A stretch of DNA of 46,918 nucleotides. It comes from Pseudomonadota bacterium (GTDB taxonomy: Bacteria; Pseudomonadota; Alphaproteobacteria; Acetobacterales; Acetobacteraceae). The number at the start of each line of letters is the position of its first letter. Within the stretch, counting starts at the first letter, position 1. The translations under genes and the position numbers were made by a program. The notes beneath the pieces were generated by a model that was given only the letters and a program-made list of their open reading frames with translations, was not told where the DNA came from and did not search any database. Positions 4,243 to 46,903 of this stretch are shown one piece after another. The DNA lies in the NCBI GenBank assembly GCA_021846225.1, contig JAJZCG010000008.1, positions 1 to 46,918 on the forward strand. The letters are read 5' to 3'.

Positions 4243-4298
4243 ATTGCCTTTTTCTTTCAGGGTTTCCCGCGGCGGAGAAATCATGGCAACCTGCGCCC

Positions 4299-4964
4299 AT
4301 GTCCGCCCGGCCATTCATCCTCACCCCAGACCTGCTGCTCCGCGCCTACCGGCTGGGACTGTTCCCCATGGCGGAATCGCGCGGCAGCAAGACACTGCAC
4401 TGGCTCGACCCCGAGACACGCGGCGTGCTGCCGCTGGATAAGTTCCACCTGCCCCGCAGCCTGATGAAAACCCTGCGCAGCGGCAAATTCACCGTCACGG
4501 CGGATGCTGATTTCCCCGGCACCATCGCCGCCTGCGCCGCCGCACGGGAGAACCGGCCGGAGACCTGGATCAACCAGGAGATCGAGCGGCTCTTCATCGC
4601 GCTGTTCCACCTCGGCTTCGCCCATAGCGTGGAGACCTGGCAGAACGGCGCGCTGGTTGGCGGGCTGTACGGCGCCAGCCTGGGCGGCGCGTTTTTCGGC
4701 GAGAGCATGTTCTCCACCACGACGGACGCCTCCAAAGCGGCGCTGGTGCATCTGCTCGCGCGGCTGCGCCTGGGTGGCTACACCCTGTTGGATACACAGT
4801 TCATCACCACCCACCTGGCCCGTTTCGGCACCGTCGAGATTACGCGCGCCGCCTATCACGCCTTGCTCGCGCAAGCGGTGGAAACGCCCGCGCGCTTCAT
4901 CGCCAGCCCTGATCCTGCCGTATTGCTGCGCGAAATAGACGCCATGAGGAAAGAATCATCATGA
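4299..4964 (+). CDS. aat: Leucyl/phenylalanyl-tRNA--protein transferase
   Basis: Cytoplasmic N-end-rule enzyme that adds Leu or Phe from aminoacyl-tRNA to proteins with N-terminal Arg or Lys, marking them for ClpAP. The 221-residue protein has the family blocks LLLRAYRLGLFPMAESR, HWLDPETRGVLPLD, HSVETW...LVGGLYG and GESMFSTTTDASKAAL, followed by LLDTQFITTHLARFG. The start was chosen because alphaproteobacterial Aat begins a few residues before the LTPDLLLRAY block. The purine-rich GGCGGAGAAA upstream fits an out-of-frame ATG at 4283 better, which is odd. The next gene overlaps by 4 nt. Confidence 0.95.
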   Translation: MSARPFILTPDLLLRAYRLGLFPMAESRGSKTLHWLDPETRGVLPLDKFHLPRSLMKTLRSGKFTVTADADFPGTIAACAAARENRPETWINQEIERLFIALFHLGFAHSVETWQNGALVGGLYGASLGGAFFGESMFSTTTDASKAALVHLLARLRLGGYTLLDTQFITTHLARFGTVEITRAAYHALLAQAVETPARFIASPDPAVLLREIDAMRKESS

Positions 4965-5545
4965 AAATTTTGCCCTTCGTACTTCCCGCGCTGCTGGCCG
5001 CAGGCCCTGCCCTGGCAACGCCCGCGTTTCTGCCCACCCGCGATGTCGCCATCACCTATGAGGTGGATACGCCCGGCCGCGCGGCACAAAACTACCTGCT
5101 GAATTACGACGCCGCGCAGGAGCTGGCGCGGGTCGAAAATCCCGCCCAGGGCATCTATATCCTGGCCAACCTGCCCTCTGGCCAGGCGCAGGTGGTGGTG
5201 CCCGCCTTGCATGCCATCGTGCAGGCGCCTGATTTCTCAGCCCTGACACAGGAAATCTCCACCGCCGGCGGCGCCCAGTTCACCCCGCTGGGCTCCGGGC
5301 ATTATGCCGGGATGGCCTGCCGGAAATATCTGGTGCTCAACGCCCATGGCTCGGGCACCGCCTGCATCACGCCCGATGGCGTGGTGCTGCATTTCGCCGG
5401 GCATGATGAACACGGTTCTGCCGAGGTAACCGCGCTATCCGTCGCCTACGCCCCGCAACCGGCGCAGGATTTCGCCCCGCCTGCGGGATTTTCCGGCTTA
5501 ACCCTCCCGCCGGGGGCGCTGCAGGCGCTCCTACAGCCGCAATAA
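4961..5545 (+). CDS. Secreted hypothetical protein (possible DUF4412-like)
   Basis: A 194-residue protein with a clear Sec signal peptide (about 1-19, ending ALA-TP). The mature part is predicted beta-rich and contains two cysteines (in GMACRKY and GTACITPDG) that could form a disulfide. The layout, with repeated references to a bound or extracted quantity and the ACRKYL/TACITPDGVVLHF blocks, resembles DUF4412-type periplasmic proteins, but I am not certain. Its ATG overlaps the aat stop, so it is probably cotranscribed with aat; no functional link is evident. Its 3' end overlaps the convergent DUF167 gene by 15 bp. Confidence 0.7.
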   Translation: MKILPFVLPALLAAGPALATPAFLPTRDVAITYEVDTPGRAAQNYLLNYDAAQELARVENPAQGIYILANLPSGQAQVVVPALHAIVQAPDFSALTQEISTAGGAQFTPLGSGHYAGMACRKYLVLNAHGSGTACITPDGVVLHFAGHDEHGSAEVTALSVAYAPQPAQDFAPPAGFSGLTLPPGALQALLQPQ

Positions 5546-38836: not shown

Positions 38837-39598
38837 ATGAACGATTCCTCCCTGCTTGACCTCGCGGTTTCACTCGTGGCCCGGGCCGCCGCCAAAATAC
38901 TCGAAATCCGCGCGGCAGGGTTTGAAGTGGACGCGAAATCCGACGAAACGCCGGTCACGGTGGCGGATATGCAGGCGGAAGCGATCATCGTGGCGGGCCT
39001 GCGCGCGGCTGCGCCGCATATCCCCGTAATCGCCGAGGAGGAGGTTGCCGCCGGGCGCCTCACCGCTCCCGCAAGCGAATACTGGCTGGTCGACCCGCTG
39101 GACGGCACCCGCGAATTCGCCGCCGGGCGAAGGGAATTCGCTGTCAACATCGGGCTCATCCGCGATGGCGCGCCTATTTTAGGCGCTGTTGCCTCGCCCG
39201 CCTTCGGCGAGATCCACTACGGCCTGGCGGGGCATGGCGCGTGGCGGCGGCGCGGTGGCGAAACCGTGCGGATTCACGCCCGCCGCCCGCCGCCGGAGGG
39301 GCTTAGCGTATTCGCCTCCCGCCATTACGCCGGCGACCCCGCCCTGGCGGCGCTGCTGGCGGGCTACCGTGTCGCAGCACTTACCAATATCGGCTCCGCG
39401 CTCAAATTCCTCCGCTTGGCGGAAGGTGCGGCTGATTTCTACCCCCGGCTTGGCCGCACCATGGAGTGGGACACCGCCGCCCCGCAGGCGGTGCTGGAAG
39501 CCGCGGGCGGACATGTCCTCACCGCGGAGGGCCAGCCATTACGCTACGGCAAGCCCGGCTGGGAGAATTCCGTTTTCTACGCCTGGGGTTTGCGTTAG
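38837..39598 (+). CDS. cysQ: Inositol-monophosphatase-family phosphatase (CysQ-like)
   Basis: A 253-residue metal-dependent phosphatase. Motifs are IAEEEVAAG, the metal-binding DPLDGTREFAAG and, near the C-terminus, EWDTAAPQAVLEAAGG. The DGTREF variant is usual for 3'(2'),5'-bisphosphate nucleotidase, which recycles PAP from sulfate assimilation. Substrate is inferred. It is divergent from pepA by 88 bp. Confidence 0.87.
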   Translation: MNDSSLLDLAVSLVARAAAKILEIRAAGFEVDAKSDETPVTVADMQAEAIIVAGLRAAAPHIPVIAEEEVAAGRLTAPASEYWLVDPLDGTREFAAGRREFAVNIGLIRDGAPILGAVASPAFGEIHYGLAGHGAWRRRGGETVRIHARRPPPEGLSVFASRHYAGDPALAALLAGYRVAALTNIGSALKFLRLAEGAADFYPRLGRTMEWDTAAPQAVLEAAGGHVLTAEGQPLRYGKPGWENSVFYAWGLR

Positions 39599-39645
39599 AC
39601 TGGCGCCGTAATGATGCCACGTTGATGGCGCAGGAATTTTTCATC

Positions 39646-40251
39646 ATGAAAAAAATCCTTCTCTCCACAGTACTCTCCCTCGGCCTCACCGGCTGCGTCT
39701 ACAGCGGCCAGGATGGCTACAGCGGCCAGGAGAGCTACGGCGGCACCGGGTATTACAGCGGCGGTTACGCGCCACAGCCGCAATATTACGCGCCGCAGCC
39801 GCAATATTATCAGCCCGCCCCCGTGTACGCGCCGCCGCCAGGCATCGTCATCGGCGTTGGCGGTGGTTATGGCGATCATGACGAGCACCACGACGGCGGC
39901 GACAGATACAATGGCGGCCATCCGCCACCGCCGCCGCCCGGTGGGGGCTGGCAGGGCCAGCAACGCGATAATGGCGGGCATCCGCCGCCGCCGCCACCGC
40001 CGCCCGGTGGGGGCTGGCAGGGCCAGCAACACGATAATGGCGGCCGTCCGCCGCCACCGCCACCACCCGGTGGGGCCCCGCGGGGCCAGCAGCCCGATAA
40101 TGGGGGCCATCCGCCACCGCCGCCACCACCCGGTGGGGCCCCGCAGGGCCGGCAGCCCGATAATGGGGGCCATCCGCCACCGCCGCCACCACCGGGCCAA
40201 GGCGGCGGCCAGAGGCCAAAACATTGGCCGGCGATTAACGGACAGAATTAA
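39646..40251 (+). CDS. Proline-rich repeat lipoprotein
   Basis: A 201-residue lipoprotein with lipobox LTGC (Cys17), then a Tyr/Gln/Gly-rich region and five tandem repeats of about 20 residues: NGGHPPPPPP-GGGWQGQQRD, with drift from GGGWQGQQ to GGAPQGRQ. The run of 6-8 prolines per unit would be a stiff polyproline rod from the outer membrane, perhaps spanning towards peptidoglycan or outside. Similar lipoproteins are known, but this one is not named. The repeat number may vary by slippage. Confidence 0.75.
   Translation: MKKILLSTVLSLGLTGCVYSGQDGYSGQESYGGTGYYSGGYAPQPQYYAPQPQYYQPAPVYAPPPGIVIGVGGGYGDHDEHHDGGDRYNGGHPPPPPPGGGWQGQQRDNGGHPPPPPPPPGGGWQGQQHDNGGRPPPPPPPGGAPRGQQPDNGGHPPPPPPPGGAPQGRQPDNGGHPPPPPPPGQGGGQRPKHWPAINGQN
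39909..40220 (+). repeat. Five tandem ~60-bp repeats in the lipoprotein gene
   Basis: The DNA repeats follow the protein units: AATGGCGGCCATCCGCCACC and variants recur about every 60-66 bp, with CCGCCGCCACC-type proline runs of varying length. The middle and final copies are more alike to each other than to the first two. The reading frame is maintained. Confidence 0.8.
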
Positions 40252-40992: not shown

Positions 40993-42114
40993 ATGCTAAT
41001 GGTTCTCCATCGTCAAAATAGCGGCAGTATTGCCCGGCAATCTTCCACTTACGGCTGGCCTTTGCAGCCCACCCTTGATGACGCCCCTTCGGCAGAATGT
41101 AACAATTCTCCAAAAGCCGAACAATTCAGCCAGGCGAACCAACAGGAATTCATGGTTGGCGACTGCCTTGCGATGAAAGAGGTGTTTTATCGAATTCGCC
41201 GCTTTGCACAATGCGATGCGCCGATTCTTATCTCAGGGGAAACCGGAACAGGAAAAGAATTGGCCGCACAGGCTGTTCATCAAAGATCCTCACGCAGCAG
41301 AGGGCCATTTATTGCAATTAATTGTGCAGCCTTACCTGCCAGCCTTATTGCATCTGAGCTTTTCGGTTACGAGAAAGGCGCTTTCACAGGGGCGGTTGGA
41401 AGGAAAATCGGCCTCATTGAGAAAGCAAATGACGGTACATTATTCTTGGATGAAATCGGCGACTTGCCCTTGGATTTGCAGGGGCATTTGCTCAGAATTC
41501 TGCAAGAGCAAACGATTACCCGAATAGGCGGACACTTACCTATACCGGTTAACGCGCGGATTATTTCCGCCAGCCACGTGCAGCTCGATGAAGCTATGAG
41601 TGCTGGCATATTCAGGCATGATCTGTTTTACCGGCTTAATGTTTTGCCTCTGCATATGCCGGCGTTGCGGGAGCGCGAAGGCGATATTGAGTTGATGGCT
41701 GCTTTTTTTCTGCGCAAGATCGCCAAGGAATTTGGCCGCGAGGTTTCCGGTTTTACAGCCGCAGCCCGGGCTATAATCCTCTCTTATACATGGCCTGGAA
41801 ATGTCCGCGAACTCATCGCCGCGATCCGGCGCGGTGTCGTCATGGGCTCTGAGCCATTGGTTTCAGAGGAAGACTTAGGACTCCATCTCCAGCATCACAC
41901 TCGAATTCAATCAGCAGCACATCCAAAAAGCGCCACACACCGGCCACCGGCCGGGTCGATTCAAGAGCGGGAAGCGCTTCAGCAAGCGCTCATCCGCAAC
42001 GACCACAATGTTACAAAAGCCGCGGCGGAGCTGGGAGTTTCAAGGGTGACTCTTTACCGTATGGCGAAGCGTCACGCAGAATTTGGTATAAAACTTCATC
42101 TTCCGGAGCACTAA
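40993..42114 (+). CDS. Sigma-54-dependent transcriptional activator (no receiver domain)
   Basis: A 373-residue enhancer-binding protein. A short N-terminal region (1-50) lacks any REC, PAS or GAF domain. The AAA+ domain (about 53-290) has Walker A GETGTGKE (82-89), the sigma-54 contact motif GAFTGA (129-134) and Walker B FLDEIGD (151-157). A Fis-type helix-turn-helix ends the protein (NVTKAAAELGVSRVTLYRMAKR, about 335-360). The obvious target is the -24/-12 promoter at 45151-45165 of the adjacent amyloid-like operon. No kinase partner is present, so control may be by abundance or by an unknown signal. An in-frame ATG at 40999 is an alternative start. Confidence 0.9.
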   Translation: MLMVLHRQNSGSIARQSSTYGWPLQPTLDDAPSAECNNSPKAEQFSQANQQEFMVGDCLAMKEVFYRIRRFAQCDAPILISGETGTGKELAAQAVHQRSSRSRGPFIAINCAALPASLIASELFGYEKGAFTGAVGRKIGLIEKANDGTLFLDEIGDLPLDLQGHLLRILQEQTITRIGGHLPIPVNARIISASHVQLDEAMSAGIFRHDLFYRLNVLPLHMPALREREGDIELMAAFFLRKIAKEFGREVSGFTAAARAIILSYTWPGNVRELIAAIRRGVVMGSEPLVSEEDLGLHLQHHTRIQSAAHPKSATHRPPAGSIQEREALQQALIRNDHNVTKAAAELGVSRVTLYRMAKRHAEFGIKLHLPEH

Positions 42115-42164: not shown

Positions 42165-42521
42165 TTACTGGACAACGCCATTTAGCGTAATGGTTGAGTT
42201 GCTGTTGCTTAGATTTCTTTGCTGGGACGCTGGCCGGAGTTCGTCCCACAAAGTAATTGCCGCACGGGGCTCGCCTGTTCCACTCAACGACGGCGCTTTT
42301 AACCCGGTTCCTGTTATAACGGCTATCGCTGAATCTGGGAGAGCTGTGAGGTTCGTCATAGCCGCGGGGGAAATCAGATCCAACCCACGGCCCTTGGCAA
42401 GGCAAACTCCCGGCATTGCCACGGCCAAAAGGGCCGCAAAAAAAGCGACGCCACACATAGATCCGCGAAGCCATTTCCTGGGCGTTGCCAACACATCCAG
42501 CCGGGATGAAAACTGTTTCAT
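42165..42521 (-). CDS. Small secreted protein of the Fap-like cluster
   Basis: A 118-residue protein with a long signal sequence (VAFFAALLAVAMPGVCLA, ending near 42). The mature start has ALPDSAIAVITGTG, resembling a leader with an L-(S/P)D-x-x-(I/L)-x-x-(V/I)-TG-type cleavage motif, as in FilA/Fap-associated proteins; this is tentative. It ends NSNSTITLNGVV. The start at 42521 has only a weak ribosome-binding site. It is last in the cluster and may be a minor subunit or nucleator. Confidence 0.6.
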   Translation of the reverse strand: MKQFSSRLDVLATPRKWLRGSMCGVAFFAALLAVAMPGVCLAKGRGLDLISPAAMTNLTALPDSAIAVITGTGLKAPSLSGTGEPRAAITLWDELRPASQQRNLSNSNSTITLNGVVQ

Positions 42522-42635
42522 GTTAATCTCGTAGATCAAAGTATCACATAATTTTCTATGTAACAGCCGCACAACCAGGGGTGGCAAACGGCATCTTTTT
42601 TACACCCCTGAGTGTATATTTTTTTCGCAAAATCG

Positions 42636-43259
42636 TCAACGAGAAAATCCAAGCCCGCCAAAGCCTGACGCCTGTTGGGCCAGCCATTGTGACATTCCTG
42701 AAATTTCAACATTCATTGTCGTAACCTGGCTCAACATCGTATTATTCGCCATGTTGGTGATCATATTACTGATCCCATTGCTGCCCAGCGATGAGAGCAA
42801 AACGGTAGCCCCGTTGTTGAGCGTCGATGAGAGAGTAACAGAGGGCGCACCCGCCGGCAGTTGAATCGTATTCCCCCCGACATTGATTGTGGCCGCACCA
42901 CCCGCCCCTTGTTGCGTTAAGGTCGTCGTGTCACCTCCCGCGACATACGCAACTGCACCGCCGGCGCCATTCGTCACTTTTGTTAACGGCACAAAAATGC
43001 TCTGGATTGCTTTGGTGCCCTGATAATCCACCTGTTGGAACGCAAAGCTGATCGAGAGGCCGGGCTTCAGATCAAATCCACCACGAATTTTGTCAAGTTC
43101 CTGGTGCGAAATCTGGGAGGATGAAAGCTGGAGAAAACTGATCATGTTAGCATCAGAAGGACTGCCCGCAGGTTGTTCAGCATAGGCTGGCATACTGCAG
43201 ACGGCGGCCGTTGCGAAAACTATACATGGACTCCATTTACAAAAAAGATTGAAAGACAT
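42636..43259 (-). CDS. Secreted Fap-like cluster protein with double-glycine motif
   Basis: A 207-residue protein with a Sec signal peptide (1-27, AYA-EQP). After it comes SSSQISHQELDKIRGG (46-61), a close match to the bacteriocin double-glycine leader motif L-x-x-x-E-L-x-x-I-x-G-G. The mature part is Gly/Asn/Thr/Ser-rich with NGGAGG and a C-terminal NGISNMITNMANNTMLSQVTTMNVEIS module also found in the two proteins upstream. The 27-bp gap to the C39 peptidase gene indicates cotranscription. It could be a peptidase substrate and an amyloid subunit or chaperone. Confidence 0.72.
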   Translation of the reverse strand: MSFNLFCKWSPCIVFATAAVCSMPAYAEQPAGSPSDANMISFLQLSSSQISHQELDKIRGGFDLKPGLSISFAFQQVDYQGTKAIQSIFVPLTKVTNGAGGAVAYVAGGDTTTLTQQGAGGAATINVGGNTIQLPAGAPSVTLSSTLNNGATVLLSSLGSNGISNMITNMANNTMLSQVTTMNVEISGMSQWLAQQASGFGGLGFSR

Positions 43260-43286
43260 TGACCGATACTCCTGTTTTCGGACGCA

Positions 43287-44006
43287 TCAGAACTTATACG
43301 GATCGGGAATCATAACCTGCTGAAGCGTTGAGAGATTAACCGCAAAACGGCTGAGATCGAGCGGTGCGCCGGGTTCGCCGGACCAGTCCCGCTCACCATT
43401 AAAACTAGCTTGCGCAGCATGGACATCCGCTAGAATAATTAAAAAAACTCCCGACCATTGTTGTTGGAAATCATGCGTGGATTCCGTCCGCAGACCAATG
43501 GCTGGATCCGCCAGCAATACCTGGCCATCCCGAATGCCGCGGATAACAACAAAATGCCTGAAGCCATGTTCATTGATCAGAACAATGGCCGGCATCCTTA
43601 TCGCCGCGAGTTTTGATAGTGATGCTCTGAAACCTCCAGATGGCAGCCCTATCCTGGTTAGATAATTTTTCATGTCCAACAATGAAAAACCGTGCTTCTC
43701 GATAACCGGCTGGTCCCCGTTGAGAAACATACTCGTAAAGACCTGGGTTTCAGTTGAAGGCTTATGGTAGGTAAAGGTAAGCAGCGTTGCGAGCGCAGCC
43801 GAACCGCACGAGAAATCATACTCCTGCTTAACCGTTGTCTTGAATTTTCGCCCTTGGAAACTTAAAACATTTACGTCTAAATTACCGCCGCTCACCGCCA
43901 GTCCATTCAGAAAAACCTGGCCAGCCTGTGCGCTTATTATTCCAAGGCACGCATAGAAAACTACCAACATCGGTGCAAATATTCTCATCCTGTGCAGCGG
44001 GCTCAT
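43287..44006 (-). CDS. Periplasmic C39-family peptidase (FapD-like)
   Basis: A 239-residue protein with a signal peptide (1-28, SAQAGQ) followed by a C39 papain-fold domain: KQEYDFSCGSAALATLLT with Gln61 and nucleophile Cys67, FRHFVVIRG with His151, and LLADPAIG with Asp167. C39 enzymes cut double-glycine leaders; FapD of the Fap amyloid system is a secreted C39 protease needed for fibre assembly. Here no ABC transporter is attached, so it works in the periplasm on Sec-exported substrates. It lies between two secreted proteins that carry a double-glycine motif. Confidence 0.88.
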   Translation of the reverse strand: MSPLHRMRIFAPMLVVFYACLGIISAQAGQVFLNGLAVSGGNLDVNVLSFQGRKFKTTVKQEYDFSCGSAALATLLTFTYHKPSTETQVFTSMFLNGDQPVIEKHGFSLLDMKNYLTRIGLPSGGFRASLSKLAAIRMPAIVLINEHGFRHFVVIRGIRDGQVLLADPAIGLRTESTHDFQQQWSGVFLIILADVHAAQASFNGERDWSGEPGAPLDLSRFAVNLSTLQQVMIPDPYKF

Positions 44007-44020
44007 TTCTGGCGACCTTC

Positions 44021-44374
44021 TTATTTAAGAGAGATGTTCACCGTCGTGCTGCTTTGAAACAAAGTATTGTTACCGGTATTCTGAAAAATTGTCGTTATAC
44101 CGGTATTGTTGTTGACCGACTGGGTATTTGAGATACTGCCGGTCGTCGTGCCATTTGCACTGTTTCCGGTGTCAGTTCCGATGTTGATCGACGAGACGGC
44201 AAAGCTTCCGCCACGCAGACTTTCCAGTTGTGCATTAGAAACCGCCATACCGGAAAGACCGCTGATCGTTGTATCGCCCTGAGGACCAGAGCCGGATGCA
44301 AAAGCCGGTTCAGAAGCTGAAAGCAATGCGTAGCTTGATGCAACCATGAATATCGCGGCTGTCATTACGTTCAT
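44021..44374 (-). CDS. Small secreted amyloid-like protein with double-glycine motif
   Basis: A 117-residue protein with a signal peptide (1-27, AFA-SG) and then MAVSNAQLESLRGG (43-56), a double-glycine leader-like motif. The rest is Asn/Thr/Ser/Gly-rich, ending in two 9-residue repeats, NTGITTIFQ and NTGNNTLFQ, and SSTTVNISLK. The pattern is like curli/Fap amyloid repeats with periodic Gln and Asn. Its start has AGGAG and it is 14 bp from the C39 peptidase gene. It is probably a minor amyloid subunit or nucleator. Confidence 0.72.
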   Translation of the reverse strand: MNVMTAAIFMVASSYALLSASEPAFASGSGPQGDTTISGLSGMAVSNAQLESLRGGSFAVSSINIGTDTGNSANGTTTGSISNTQSVNNNTGITTIFQNTGNNTLFQSSTTVNISLK

Positions 44375-44437
44375 AGGACGCTCCTATCGTGCCAGGGTAC
44401 ATCTCGCGCACCAAAAGCGCTAATTAAAAATGTGGCG

Positions 44438-44476
44438 GCTCCGCACTGCATCGAGTAATCATGCAATGCGGAGCCC
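44438..44476 (-). terminator. Strong hairpin between the first subunit gene and the rest of the operon
   Basis: On the coding (minus) strand GGCTCCGCA-T-TGCAT pairs with ATGCA-G-TGCGGAGCC: a 9-bp and a 5-bp stem flanking one mismatch, with a 9-nt loop. A T-run (TTTTTAATT) follows 6 nt further. Located 25 nt after the 44501-45064 gene stop, it is likely a partial terminator that gives high expression of the first gene and lower expression of the following ones. Confidence 0.75.
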
Positions 44477-44500
44477 AAACACGCTGATCTGCAAGACAGA

Positions 44501-45064
44501 TTAGAAGCCGCTGATTCCCGTGCCGCCGCTGCTGCCGCTGACAACTGAACCAAGAGCCACGGAGTTCTGCTGCAGCGAGGCCGCGCCGGTATTCTGCATG
44601 GCGGTATTGATGCCATCGCCGCCGTTCACCGTGCTCATCCCATTGCTGCCGCTGCTCACGGATACGCCTGAACCGCCCTTATGATCCTCGCCCCGGCTTC
44701 CGCCACCACCACCGATTGTAATGTCCTTGACAGCGCCTTCATTGCTGGTTGAGGCAACGGTGATGCTCGTATTGGTGTTTGTGCTCACCATCGTTTCGTT
44801 GCCAACATTATTGAGGTTTTTCGTAAACGATTCAGCGCTGTTATTGGAATTGGCCGTGTTACCGGAATTGGCCGTGTTGGCGGAATTTTTCAAATTCGCG
44901 CTGACATTCGTGCCACCGGAGGTTGCGGCCTGGCCATTGCCGCCGACCAAAGCATTTTTGACGATCGGCACATTCACTGACGTACCGCCGTCGCCCCTAT
45001 GGGCAAACGCCATGCCGGCGGAGAGAAGAAATACAGCCGACCCAGCGAGAAGAATGTTACGCAT
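44501..45064 (-). CDS. Major secreted amyloid-like protein (FapC-like candidate)
   Basis: A 187-residue protein with a signal peptide (1-21, AFA-HR). The mature sequence is rich in Asn, Ser, Gly, Thr and Ala, with repeats such as NSANTANSGNTANSNNSAES (60-79) and NTNTSITVASTSNEG, and a glycine-rich linker. The C-terminal GINTAMQNTGAASLQQNS (151-168) resembles the ends of the two other cluster proteins and curli-like Gln/Asn-spaced repeats. It is the first gene after a sigma-54 promoter, so the main structural subunit is the natural guess. No double-glycine site as clear as in the neighbours; VKNALVGG (35-42) is a weak candidate. Confidence 0.72.
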   Translation of the reverse strand: MRNILLAGSAVFLLSAGMAFAHRGDGGTSVNVPIVKNALVGGNGQAATSGGTNVSANLKNSANTANSGNTANSNNSAESFTKNLNNVGNETMVSTNTNTSITVASTSNEGAVKDITIGGGGGSRGEDHKGGSGVSVSSGSNGMSTVNGGDGINTAMQNTGAASLQQNSVALGSVVSGSSGGTGISGF

Positions 45065-45150
45065 GATAGTCCTCCGTTTTTAATTTGTGAAAGAAGCATC
45101 TGAACTCTTATGACGGTTGACTGCGCAACTTCGCCATGACCAGGTACAGA

Positions 45151-45165
45151 GCAAACACCATGCCA
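45151..45165 (-). promoter_or_regulatory. Sigma-54 (-24/-12) promoter of the amyloid-like operon
   Basis: On the minus strand TGGCATG (45165-45159), four bases GTGT, and TTGC (45154-45151) match the TGGCAYG-N4-TTGC consensus exactly. The start site is expected near 45140, giving about a 75-nt leader to the 45064 ATG. It pairs with the sigma-54 activator encoded at 40993. Confidence 0.85.
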
Positions 45166-45274
45166 ACATTTTAACGTCTCGAAGCCCGCACCAGTTTTGT
45201 TTATAATTCAGGCGACTACGGAAAATCTCTGATGGCATCGGCTGGTTTTGTTGCGTATCATGTTTTGTAAACAC

Positions 45275-45294
45275 TGTTACAGGATACTGTATCA
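45275..45294. promoter_or_regulatory. Candidate upstream activator site for the sigma-54 activator
   Basis: TGTTACAG-GATA-CTGTATCA is an 8-bp inverted repeat with one mismatch and a 4-bp spacer. It lies about 110-130 bp upstream of the -24 box, the usual position for enhancer-binding proteins. A related inverted repeat (TGTTACAT...ATGTGATA with an 8-bp spacer, minus strand) lies at about 42541-42565 just upstream of the last cluster gene. Both are candidates only. Confidence 0.5.
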
Positions 45295-45439
45295 GTTACA
45301 CCGTACATGAAACGCCTGGTGGTTATGACGGTTCTTGTTTGCATTTCACACCGAGACGAACTCGATCCTTGAACAGATCATAGTTTACAAATCGTATTTA
45401 TCCGATTATTCTAAACCGCGCGTCAGAGAGGAGGCTGCA

Positions 45440-46903
45440 ATGGCCGTCAAAGCCTATTACTCTTCTAATAAAATAAAAATTCATCACTTTGAGACGGGTT
45501 TTATCAAGGGGGTGAAATTTGTCAGCCGCCTTCGATCTATTCTGGCCTATACTGCGAGTGGCGCGCTCACCCCGATTGCCGTGGTTTGTCTGCCCGCGTC
45601 TCTTGTTTTTGCCGCTTCGGGTAGTGGCGTTGCCCAGGCGGCGCCGAGCCCGTCTGATAGTTTGTCCGCGCTGCAAGCTGCCATTGCCGCGCAAGAAGCG
45701 AAGTTGCAGCAGGAAGAGCTGCAGCTCGAGCAGCAATCACTCGAATTGAATCAGCAGCAGCGCCTGCTGGATAGCCAAATGGCCAAATTGCGAGGAACAG
45801 GCACAAGCGCTGTAAGCTCTGCGCCAGTGGCGGCCGATACGGCGGCCAACAATTCCGCCACCGCTCCAGCCTCCGCGGCGCAAGCAGCTCCCGCCAGCGG
45901 TACGGTGGGTGAGGAACAGCAGCAACAGCAGCAAACAAATCAGCAAGAACAAACAAAAATCATACTTCAATCATCAACCGTGCTTGCCAACACAGGCGGG
46001 GTACTAACGCCCAAAGGCGAGCTTGTTATCGACCCTTCAATTGAATATGACTACTGGGCGCAAAATCAACTGGCGTTGAATGGGTTTACCATTATCCCAG
46101 GCATAACCTTTGGAAATATTTTCATTGCGCGTGTCGATCAAAATTTTCTGACCGCATCTGTCACGGCCCGTTATGGCCTTACAGACCGGCTGGAGATAAA
46201 CGCAAAAATTCCGATGGTCGCAGGTTATGGCACTTTCACCGCCCAGGCCGCGGGGCCGAATGCCCAACCGATCAACGCGAGCGCAAACAACGTAAATATT
46301 GGCGATATCCAATTCGGCGGGTCATACCAATTCAATTCTGGAGACAATGGATGGCCTGTTTTCGTTGGAAACCTGACGTTTAAAACCGCCACAGGGGTTA
46401 GCCCCTATTCGGTGCCGATTTACACTATATATGACACCGGGGGAAATTTTCTTGGGGGTATCCAGAAAAAACTTCCCACAGGAACGGGGTTTTATTCACT
46501 TCAACCCAGCGTGACGGTATTCTACCCGACAGCGCCCGGCGTGTTATTTGGCAATCTCGAATACGTTTATAATTTCAGCCGGACATTCAATCTTCTGAGC
46601 AGTTCCGGCGGAACGGCACGGGAGAATCTGGAGCCAGGCAGCGCGGTTGCGGCGACATTTGGCATGGGGTTTGCCCTGAATGACAAGGCGTCGATGACCT
46701 TGAGCTACCAGCAGGAACATGTGTTTGGCTCCTCGGTGAATAACCGCTCGATTCCCGGTTCCGCCTATGATTTTGGCACCTTCAATTTTGGCCTGGGCTA
46801 CGCGATTAATGCGCGGACCAATTTTAACATCGGCGTTGGGATCGGCGCCGGCCCGAATGCGCCGGTCGCTAAAATTCTGTTTGAGATACCTGTGCGGTTT
46901 TAG
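45440..46903 (+). CDS. Outer-membrane beta-barrel with N-terminal coiled coil (FapF-like)
   Basis: A 487-residue protein with a long signal sequence (about 1-67, hydrophobic stretch near 38-62, VAQA-APS), longer than usual and like extended signal peptides. A coiled coil with Gln/Glu-rich heptads (about 75-118, LQAAIAAQEAKLQQEELQLEQQSLELNQQQRLLDSQMAKL) is followed by an Ala/Gln/Asn linker. A C-terminal domain of amphipathic strands (about 165-487) ends IPVRF, a typical outer-membrane C-terminus. This is the layout of FapF, a trimeric pore that exports Fap amyloid. The start at 45440 has AGGAGG; a longer TTG start at 45335 is not supported. Confidence 0.82.
   Translation: MAVKAYYSSNKIKIHHFETGFIKGVKFVSRLRSILAYTASGALTPIAVVCLPASLVFAASGSGVAQAAPSPSDSLSALQAAIAAQEAKLQQEELQLEQQSLELNQQQRLLDSQMAKLRGTGTSAVSSAPVAADTAANNSATAPASAAQAAPASGTVGEEQQQQQQTNQQEQTKIILQSSTVLANTGGVLTPKGELVIDPSIEYDYWAQNQLALNGFTIIPGITFGNIFIARVDQNFLTASVTARYGLTDRLEINAKIPMVAGYGTFTAQAAGPNAQPINASANNVNIGDIQFGGSYQFNSGDNGWPVFVGNLTFKTATGVSPYSVPIYTIYDTGGNFLGGIQKKLPTGTGFYSLQPSVTVFYPTAPGVLFGNLEYVYNFSRTFNLLSSSGGTARENLEPGSAVAATFGMGFALNDKASMTLSYQQEHVFGSSVNNRSIPGSAYDFGTFNFGLGYAINARTNFNIGVGIGAGPNAPVAKILFEIPVRF

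Follow-up and report, generated by a model that had tools for sequence, protein, structure and literature searches.

The functional amyloid (Fap) system of Pseudomonas is the closest described counterpart of the gene cluster studied here. Its peptidase FapD is a Sec-exported, periplasmic member of family C39 that is essential for Fap amyloid secretion, and its cysteine is required for the secretion of FapC (Rouse 2017, PMC5557850). The target of this peptidase is either unknown or merely suspected in the literature available to us. The accessible text of the 2017 study finds 'no canonical C39 sequences' in the Fap proteins and leaves the target of FapD open. FapE is suspected there, as its N-terminal peptides are missing in mass spectrometry (MS), with no FapE peptides over the first ~70 residues, and the FapF linker is likewise proposed (PMC5557850). 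A 2025 review, in its accessible part, still describes FapD as 'thought to process' FapE and FapF. As for distribution, the portions available of a 2013 paper restrict Fap to classes other than that of the present host (PMC3792158), and those of a 2018 review list Erythrobacter (PMC6173800). The other point of reference is the bacteriocin-type leader. According to the available text of the LahT paper, the ComA consensus is Leu-12, Glu-8 and Leu-7, and residues -4, -7 and -12 sit in a hydrophobic groove (PMC6363468).

This study concerns a 46,918-nucleotide stretch of DNA, called the window throughout. A first-pass annotation of it had reported two exported proteins with a double-glycine leader behind the Sec signal peptide, encoded on either side of a periplasmic C39 peptidase. 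That observation is real, and stronger than it was stated.

The Fap-type cluster and its peptidase

Judged by sequence, the cluster at 42165-46903 is a divergent operon of the Fap (functional amyloid) type. Its host is an Acidocella-like alphaproteobacterium with a genome of 2.69 Mb. Five genes run on the minus strand, from 44501-45064 down to 42165-42521; the fapF-like gene diverges from this run, and a sigma-54 activator gene occupies the other flank:

40993-42114, plus strand: sigma-54 activator protein beside the cluster (Pfam Sigma54_activat, 2.9e-66; HTH_8)
42165-42521, minus strand: small Sec-exported protein, the third in the cluster; start at the ATG of 42521, or at a TTG in a longer open reading frame (ORF) that reaches 42587 (sequence)
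42306-42326, minus strand: weak candidate site IAVITGT in the 42165-type protein (nine aligned copies)
42636-43259, minus strand: FapE-type protein, 207 aa, encoded immediately downstream of fapD; a double-glycine leader follows the Sec signal (profile-profile match)
43077-43109, minus strand: leader motif SHQELDKIRGG, residues 51-61, with a predicted FapD cut after Gly61 (genus alignment)
43287-44006, minus strand: FapD-like stand-alone C39 cysteine peptidase, 239 aa (Pfam and NCBIfam)
44021-44374, minus strand: small Sec-exported protein, 117 aa, immediately upstream of fapD; second predicted substrate (sequence)
44207-44239, minus strand: leader motif SNAQLESLRGG, residues 46-56 (genus copies)
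44501-45064, minus strand: candidate fibre-subunit-like protein, Asn/Gly-rich, 187 aa, first gene of the operon (sequence)
45150-45165, minus strand: sigma-54 type promoter TGGCATGGTGTTTGCT upstream of the operon's first gene (position and conservation)
45335-46903, plus strand: FapF-like outer-membrane pore with N-terminal coiled coil, start codon uncertain (NF058560)
45779-45799, plus strand: weak site MAKLRGT at the end of the FapF coiled coil (sequence)

The fapD-like gene adjoins a FapE-type gene and has a fapF-like gene near, which is the arrangement of a Fap system. The FapD-like and FapF-like proteins score far under the curated NCBIfam cut-offs (NF058616 C39_FapD: 140.9 bits, E 3.5e-41, cut-off 330; NF058560: 162 bits, E 2e-47, cut-off 700), so the window holds a divergent Fap-type system outside those equivalog families. 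The 42636, 44021 and 42165 proteins have no match above cut-off in Pfam or NCBIfam. The 44501-45064 protein is a candidate fibre subunit by its Asn/Gly richness, and no leader site was found in it. Further along the window, at 39466-40251, lies a proline/glycine-repeat protein (PPPPPPPGGG...) with a lipoprotein-like N-terminus behind an internal start.

The peptidase between the two leader-bearing proteins has the Cys67 named in the first-pass annotation and, over its 239 residues, no transporter domain. Pfam PF03412 matches it at 72.7 bits against a cut-off of 22, and the catalytic Gln61, Cys67, His151 and Asp167 are invariant in all 17 aligned sequences, which places it in family C39. Its AlphaFold model has a mean pLDDT of 81, with the blocks in residues 71 to 210 all above 90; the best PDB matches of this model are PCAT1, leader-bound LahT (6mpz) and ComA. 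Counting the window's own genome, 12 of 37 genomes of the genus have a FapD relative, which in one case is truncated by the end of a contig; full-length FapE and full-length FapD co-occur in the same 11 genus genomes. FapE-type matches were found in 13 of 61 genomes searched, namely those 11 plus two fragments at contig ends. Apparent cases of FapE without FapD (G001 and G025) were rejected, both being contig ends. Elsewhere, the FapD-like gene is split over two frames in L031 (Vibrio plasmid) and L033 (Acidithiobacillus plasmid), and fapD-fapE is present twice per locus in L156 and L169.

The sigma-54 activator likely regulates the cluster. Close relatives of it (62-95% identity) are encoded in 7 of the 11 other loci of the genus, among which some are truncated at contig ends. 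An element resembling TGGCAC/T-N5-TTGC starts 90-133 bp upstream of the first gene's start codon in all 12 genus loci examined. The promoter at 45150-45165 is called from position and conservation only; sigma-54 sites in the window as a whole are not above chance (25 found, 30.6 expected).

A predicted second leader behind the Sec signal

The motifs SHQELDKIRGG and SNAQLESLRGG lie where the first-pass annotation had placed them. The Sec signals are judged here from a hydrophobic N-terminal stretch followed by AxA in all three proteins, the peptidase included (AYA 25-27, AFA 24-26, AQA 26-28). The likeness to bacteriocin double-glycine leaders extends beyond the two glycines, as both sites fit a C39 leader at -12, -8, -7 and -4. 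At -12/-8/-7/-4/-2,-1 the 42636 protein reads I, E, L, I, GG, the full double-glycine pattern (hydrophobic -12, Glu -8, Leu -7, hydrophobic -4, Gly-Gly), and the 44021 protein reads V, Q, L, L, GG, with Gln replacing Glu. Among the 277 window ORFs that are 60 aa or longer, just two contain the strict form of the motif, [LM]xx[hydrophobic]RGG, within residues 21-110, and both flank FapD; a looser form, [LIVM]xx[hydrophobic or Ala]xGG, is present in 17 of the 277.

Within the genus, Leu55, Arg59, Gly60 and Gly61 of the 42636 protein are invariant in 10 of 10 aligned sequences, and LxxxRGG is present in all 11 full-length FapE-type copies (these ten and L006). The site is less strict in the 44021-type protein, whose 12 genus copies read RGG (7), RGA (1), RAG (1) or RARG (3). 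Similarity between the two families is weak (E 3e-5 to 0.002 in a small database of the loci, with composition correction off), and a profile of the 42636 family hits the leader part of a 44021-type gene (E 2.5e-4). They may be distant paralogues, and their leaders may therefore share ancestry. The 42636 protein itself aligns with Pseudomonas-type FapE in a profile-profile comparison (probability 91.2, E 1e-6) in which both sites are aligned; it has no match to the FapE equivalog NF058559 at E<=1 and lies outside that family.

Conservation was followed beyond the genus in 145 loci, three of which repeat others. A scan with 17 FapD sequences contributed 80 loci, the best 80 of 583. A FapD-family search covered 398 genomes from the phylum of the window; 93 had a match, in many cases an ABC transporter, and 45 regions with a stand-alone C39 gene were taken from it. 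Loci of the genus and from plasmids complete the set. A FapE-type match was present in 128 of the 145 loci, giving 130 proteins. Across their alignment P7 is Leu in 118 and Met in 12, P3 is Arg in 129 and His in one, P2 is Gly in 128 and Ala in two, P1 is Gly in 108, Arg in 16, Lys in five and Thr in one, and P1' is Phe in 98 and Tyr in 21 (119 together). Removal of identical loci leaves 127 proteins, with P1 as Gly 105, Arg 16, Lys 5 and Thr 1; with one FapE per 70% FapD cluster, RGG is found in 67 of 77. In two Halomonas loci (L111, L113) RAGF replaces RGGF and the remaining leader is kept.

The FapE profile was seeded with 100 motif-bearing proteins, leader included, and for this reason a test by position alone was added. 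In 82 of 89 loci, the Sec-like ORF that immediately follows FapD on the downstream side contains [LM]...RG[GARKTS]; with identical copies removed the count is 80 of 87, and by FapD cluster it is 57 of 62. Of the seven misses, two read RAG, one VGR and one TGK, two are overlapping frames wrongly picked, and one is a locus outside Fap. A further 44 of the 133 eligible loci yielded no candidate ORF, often because the longest reading frame begins too early. L028 and L078 have no FapD ORF, and L032 and L183-L190 (Fil type) were excluded from this test; L038 (identical to L020) was dropped from it and from the 70% cluster counts. L039 (Acidocella sp. KAb 2-4; identical to L022, FapD included) and L040 (identical to L027) are counted among the 130 proteins and the 89 loci and left out of the recounts. 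As a control, the same rule over the same stretch picked out 21 of 463 distant Sec-like ORFs within the loci (7 of 126 under a stricter signal rule); over a shorter stretch the motif was found in 3 of 94 such ORFs and 2.3% of shuffles, against 105 of 130 FapE.

The positions outside the seed pattern agree with a C39 leader, although the collecting profile did contain the leader: P12 is Leu, Ile, Val or Met in 73 of 77 clusters, against 14.5% pooled over the other leader positions (p 4e-56), P8 is Glu in 33 of 77, and P4 is hydrophobic in 65% of clusters. The expectation that the GG sites would be conserved in homologous clusters is borne out in part. The site recurs in the FapE position across Proteobacteria, but its second Gly is Arg or Lys in 21 of 130 proteins, those of the Pseudomonas-type FapD branch, with the rest of the leader kept. 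The Pseudomonas-type site reads LxxLRGR/K; a FapE called by NCBIfam (NF058559, 351 bits) bears the RGR form, with KDAEMAELRGRY at the leader site. We know of no C39 preference for Arg or Lys at P1. Trypsin cuts after Arg or Lys, and a FapD cut after the same residue may therefore be hidden from trypsin-based MS. The divergent last residue may have kept the site from being recognised as canonical in 2017. The predicted FapE cut lies ~40 residues in, less than the published ~70-residue gap. On a tree of 74 FapD representatives, the eight whose P1 is Arg or Lys are set apart from the others by a single branch (SH-aLRT 100), and 13 alignment columns (e.g. 63, 69, 124) separate the two branches. 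Co-variation of peptidase and P1 was sought on this tree and one change only was found; the switch is confined to one branch and so gives no repeated co-variation.

Predicted substrates of FapD and competing explanations

The reading that we regard as very probable is that FapD cuts off a second leader, both on the FapE-type protein and, in the lineage of the window, on the small protein encoded upstream of fapD. Maturation would begin with Sec export and cleavage by signal peptidase, as the N-termini suggest. The remaining propeptide of 30-34 residues would then bind FapD through its hydrophobic -12, -7 and -4 positions, as in ComA and LahT, a step to which both the sequence match and the fold point. 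Cys67 would cut in the periplasm behind RG-G, which in the Pseudomonas branch is RG-R/K, and the mature protein, in FapE mostly with Phe or Tyr as its first residue, would leave through FapF, by analogy with the Fap system. If secretion is blocked until the leader is removed, the requirement of FapC secretion in Pseudomonas for the FapD cysteine would be accounted for. One point against this reading is that conservation could reflect binding without cutting.

Taken further, the leader would serve for docking or as a secretion signal; FapD or FapF would read it and leave it uncut, and the essential FapD cut would lie elsewhere, such as in the FapF linker or deeper in FapE. Domains that resemble C39, are inactive and merely bind substrates do exist (PMC5135000, accessible text), but FapD retains its catalytic residues, and its cysteine is required for secretion. 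The published MS gap in FapE, reaching to about residue 70, and the proposal of the FapF linker as a target (PMC5557850, in the text available) would suit such a cut elsewhere, and P1 Gly is not kept in the Pseudomonas branch. The -12/-8/-7/-4/-2/-1 pattern is nevertheless that of cleaved C39 leaders, and FapF proteins without a coiled coil have no site although FapD is present in their loci. On balance we consider this account unlikely. Less probable still is that RGG is a conserved part of the FapE fold that resembles a C39 site by accident or by simple descent. Sequence conservation in FapE extends to either side of the site, and the possible distant paralogy of the 44021 and 42636 families, with common leader ancestry, would also fit, but the enrichment at P12 and P8 exceeds the seed pattern and similar sites appear in some FapF, a protein of different fold.

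The preferred reading, FapD as the enzyme that removes the second leader, can also be extended rather than replaced, and the two versions are not mutually exclusive. FapD would process all four proteins, that is FapE, the upstream protein, the FapF linker and the 42165-type protein, and the cut in FapF would free the barrel from its periplasmic coiled coil. This extension seems possible to us but rather doubtful, and the evidence for further substrates is suggestive only. Proteins upstream of fapD carry RGG in 42 of the 95 loci with a pick, an undercount given that one protein was picked per locus. LxxxRGT, RGG or RGA closes the coiled coil in a share of FapF: with the coiled coil assigned by a crude rule, 34 of the 79 FapF that have one contain [LM]...RG., compared with 6% of shuffles and none of the 41 FapF that lack a coiled coil. 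By FapD cluster, however, the motif is present in just 16 of 45; 13 of these 16 matches lie at or just past the end of the coiled coil, and the three in L036, L104 and L166 lie elsewhere. Nine aligned 42165-type copies read IAVITGT (3), MASVKGT, ISTVRGT, MNQIKGG, IATIKGS, MSQIKGG and MRHVSGM, so that two have IKGG and six end in GS or GT, but one has VSGM, and the window versions of both FapF and the 42165 protein have Thr at P1. Leader-like stretches were also seen in FapA-position proteins of three Pseudomonas-type loci, LGDADFARVSGG in L155 and LSDADYASMESG and LSDRDIGGISSG in L159 and L149; FapA is seen along its whole length in the published MS (PMC5557850, accessible text).

Comparison with known systems

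The first-pass annotation had called the arrangement unusual. A periplasmic C39 peptidase had been described before, in the form of FapD (PMC5557850, in the text available), but the second-leader site appears new; no published naming of the FapE leader site was found in the accessible open-licence literature. Homologues outside Pseudomonas carry the canonical leader, and the alignment pinpoints LxxLRG-R/K in Pseudomonas FapE. If true, this would widen the range of bacteriocin-type leaders to include the periplasm and biofilm fibres.

The Fil-type clusters of Acinetobacter and Pseudomonas (FilB C39, FilC), on which no open-licence papers were found, similarly have a stand-alone C39 gene adjoining a pore-like gene and, in 7 of 9 loci, a leader-like LxxxTGQ site near the start of an exported protein, possibly the FilB target. 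They differ in having TGQ instead of RGG and no FapE-type match in the nine loci. LxxxTGQ(A/D)G follows soon behind the hydrophobic N-terminus in L032 and L185-L190 and was not found in L183 and L184. In L191, near 4268-5122, a non-Fap stand-alone C39 adjoins a small exported protein with SEMDEVRGRF and then a glycine-zipper-like stretch. We suggest, tentatively and with the balance tilted slightly against it, that 'Sec first, C39 second' leaders are a broad Gram-negative class. Periplasmic C39 peptidases (FapD, FilB and others) would read a bacteriocin-like leader on proteins of fibre systems, the last residue having diverged (Gly in most Fap, Arg or Lys in the Pseudomonas branch, Gln in Fil) and the -12, -7 and -2 pattern being kept, and one peptidase would mature several parts of the machine, including the FapF coiled coil.

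With the bacteriocin leaders of C39-ABC transporters (ComA, LahT, PCAT1) the window system shares Leu-12, Glu-8, Leu-7, a hydrophobic -4 and Gly-Gly, as well as the peptidase fold. It differs in having no ABC transporter, in substrates that go through Sec first, and in a peptidase and predicted cut that are periplasmic. With Pseudomonas Fap (fapABCDEF) it shares a periplasmic stand-alone C39, an adjoining FapE-type gene and a FapF-type pore near, and the FapE sites align. The window FapE has GG where Pseudomonas has GR or GK, and the window scores lie under the NCBIfam cut-offs; the window cluster also has other small proteins, a sigma-54 activator and promoter, a divergent fapF and an alphaproteobacterial host.
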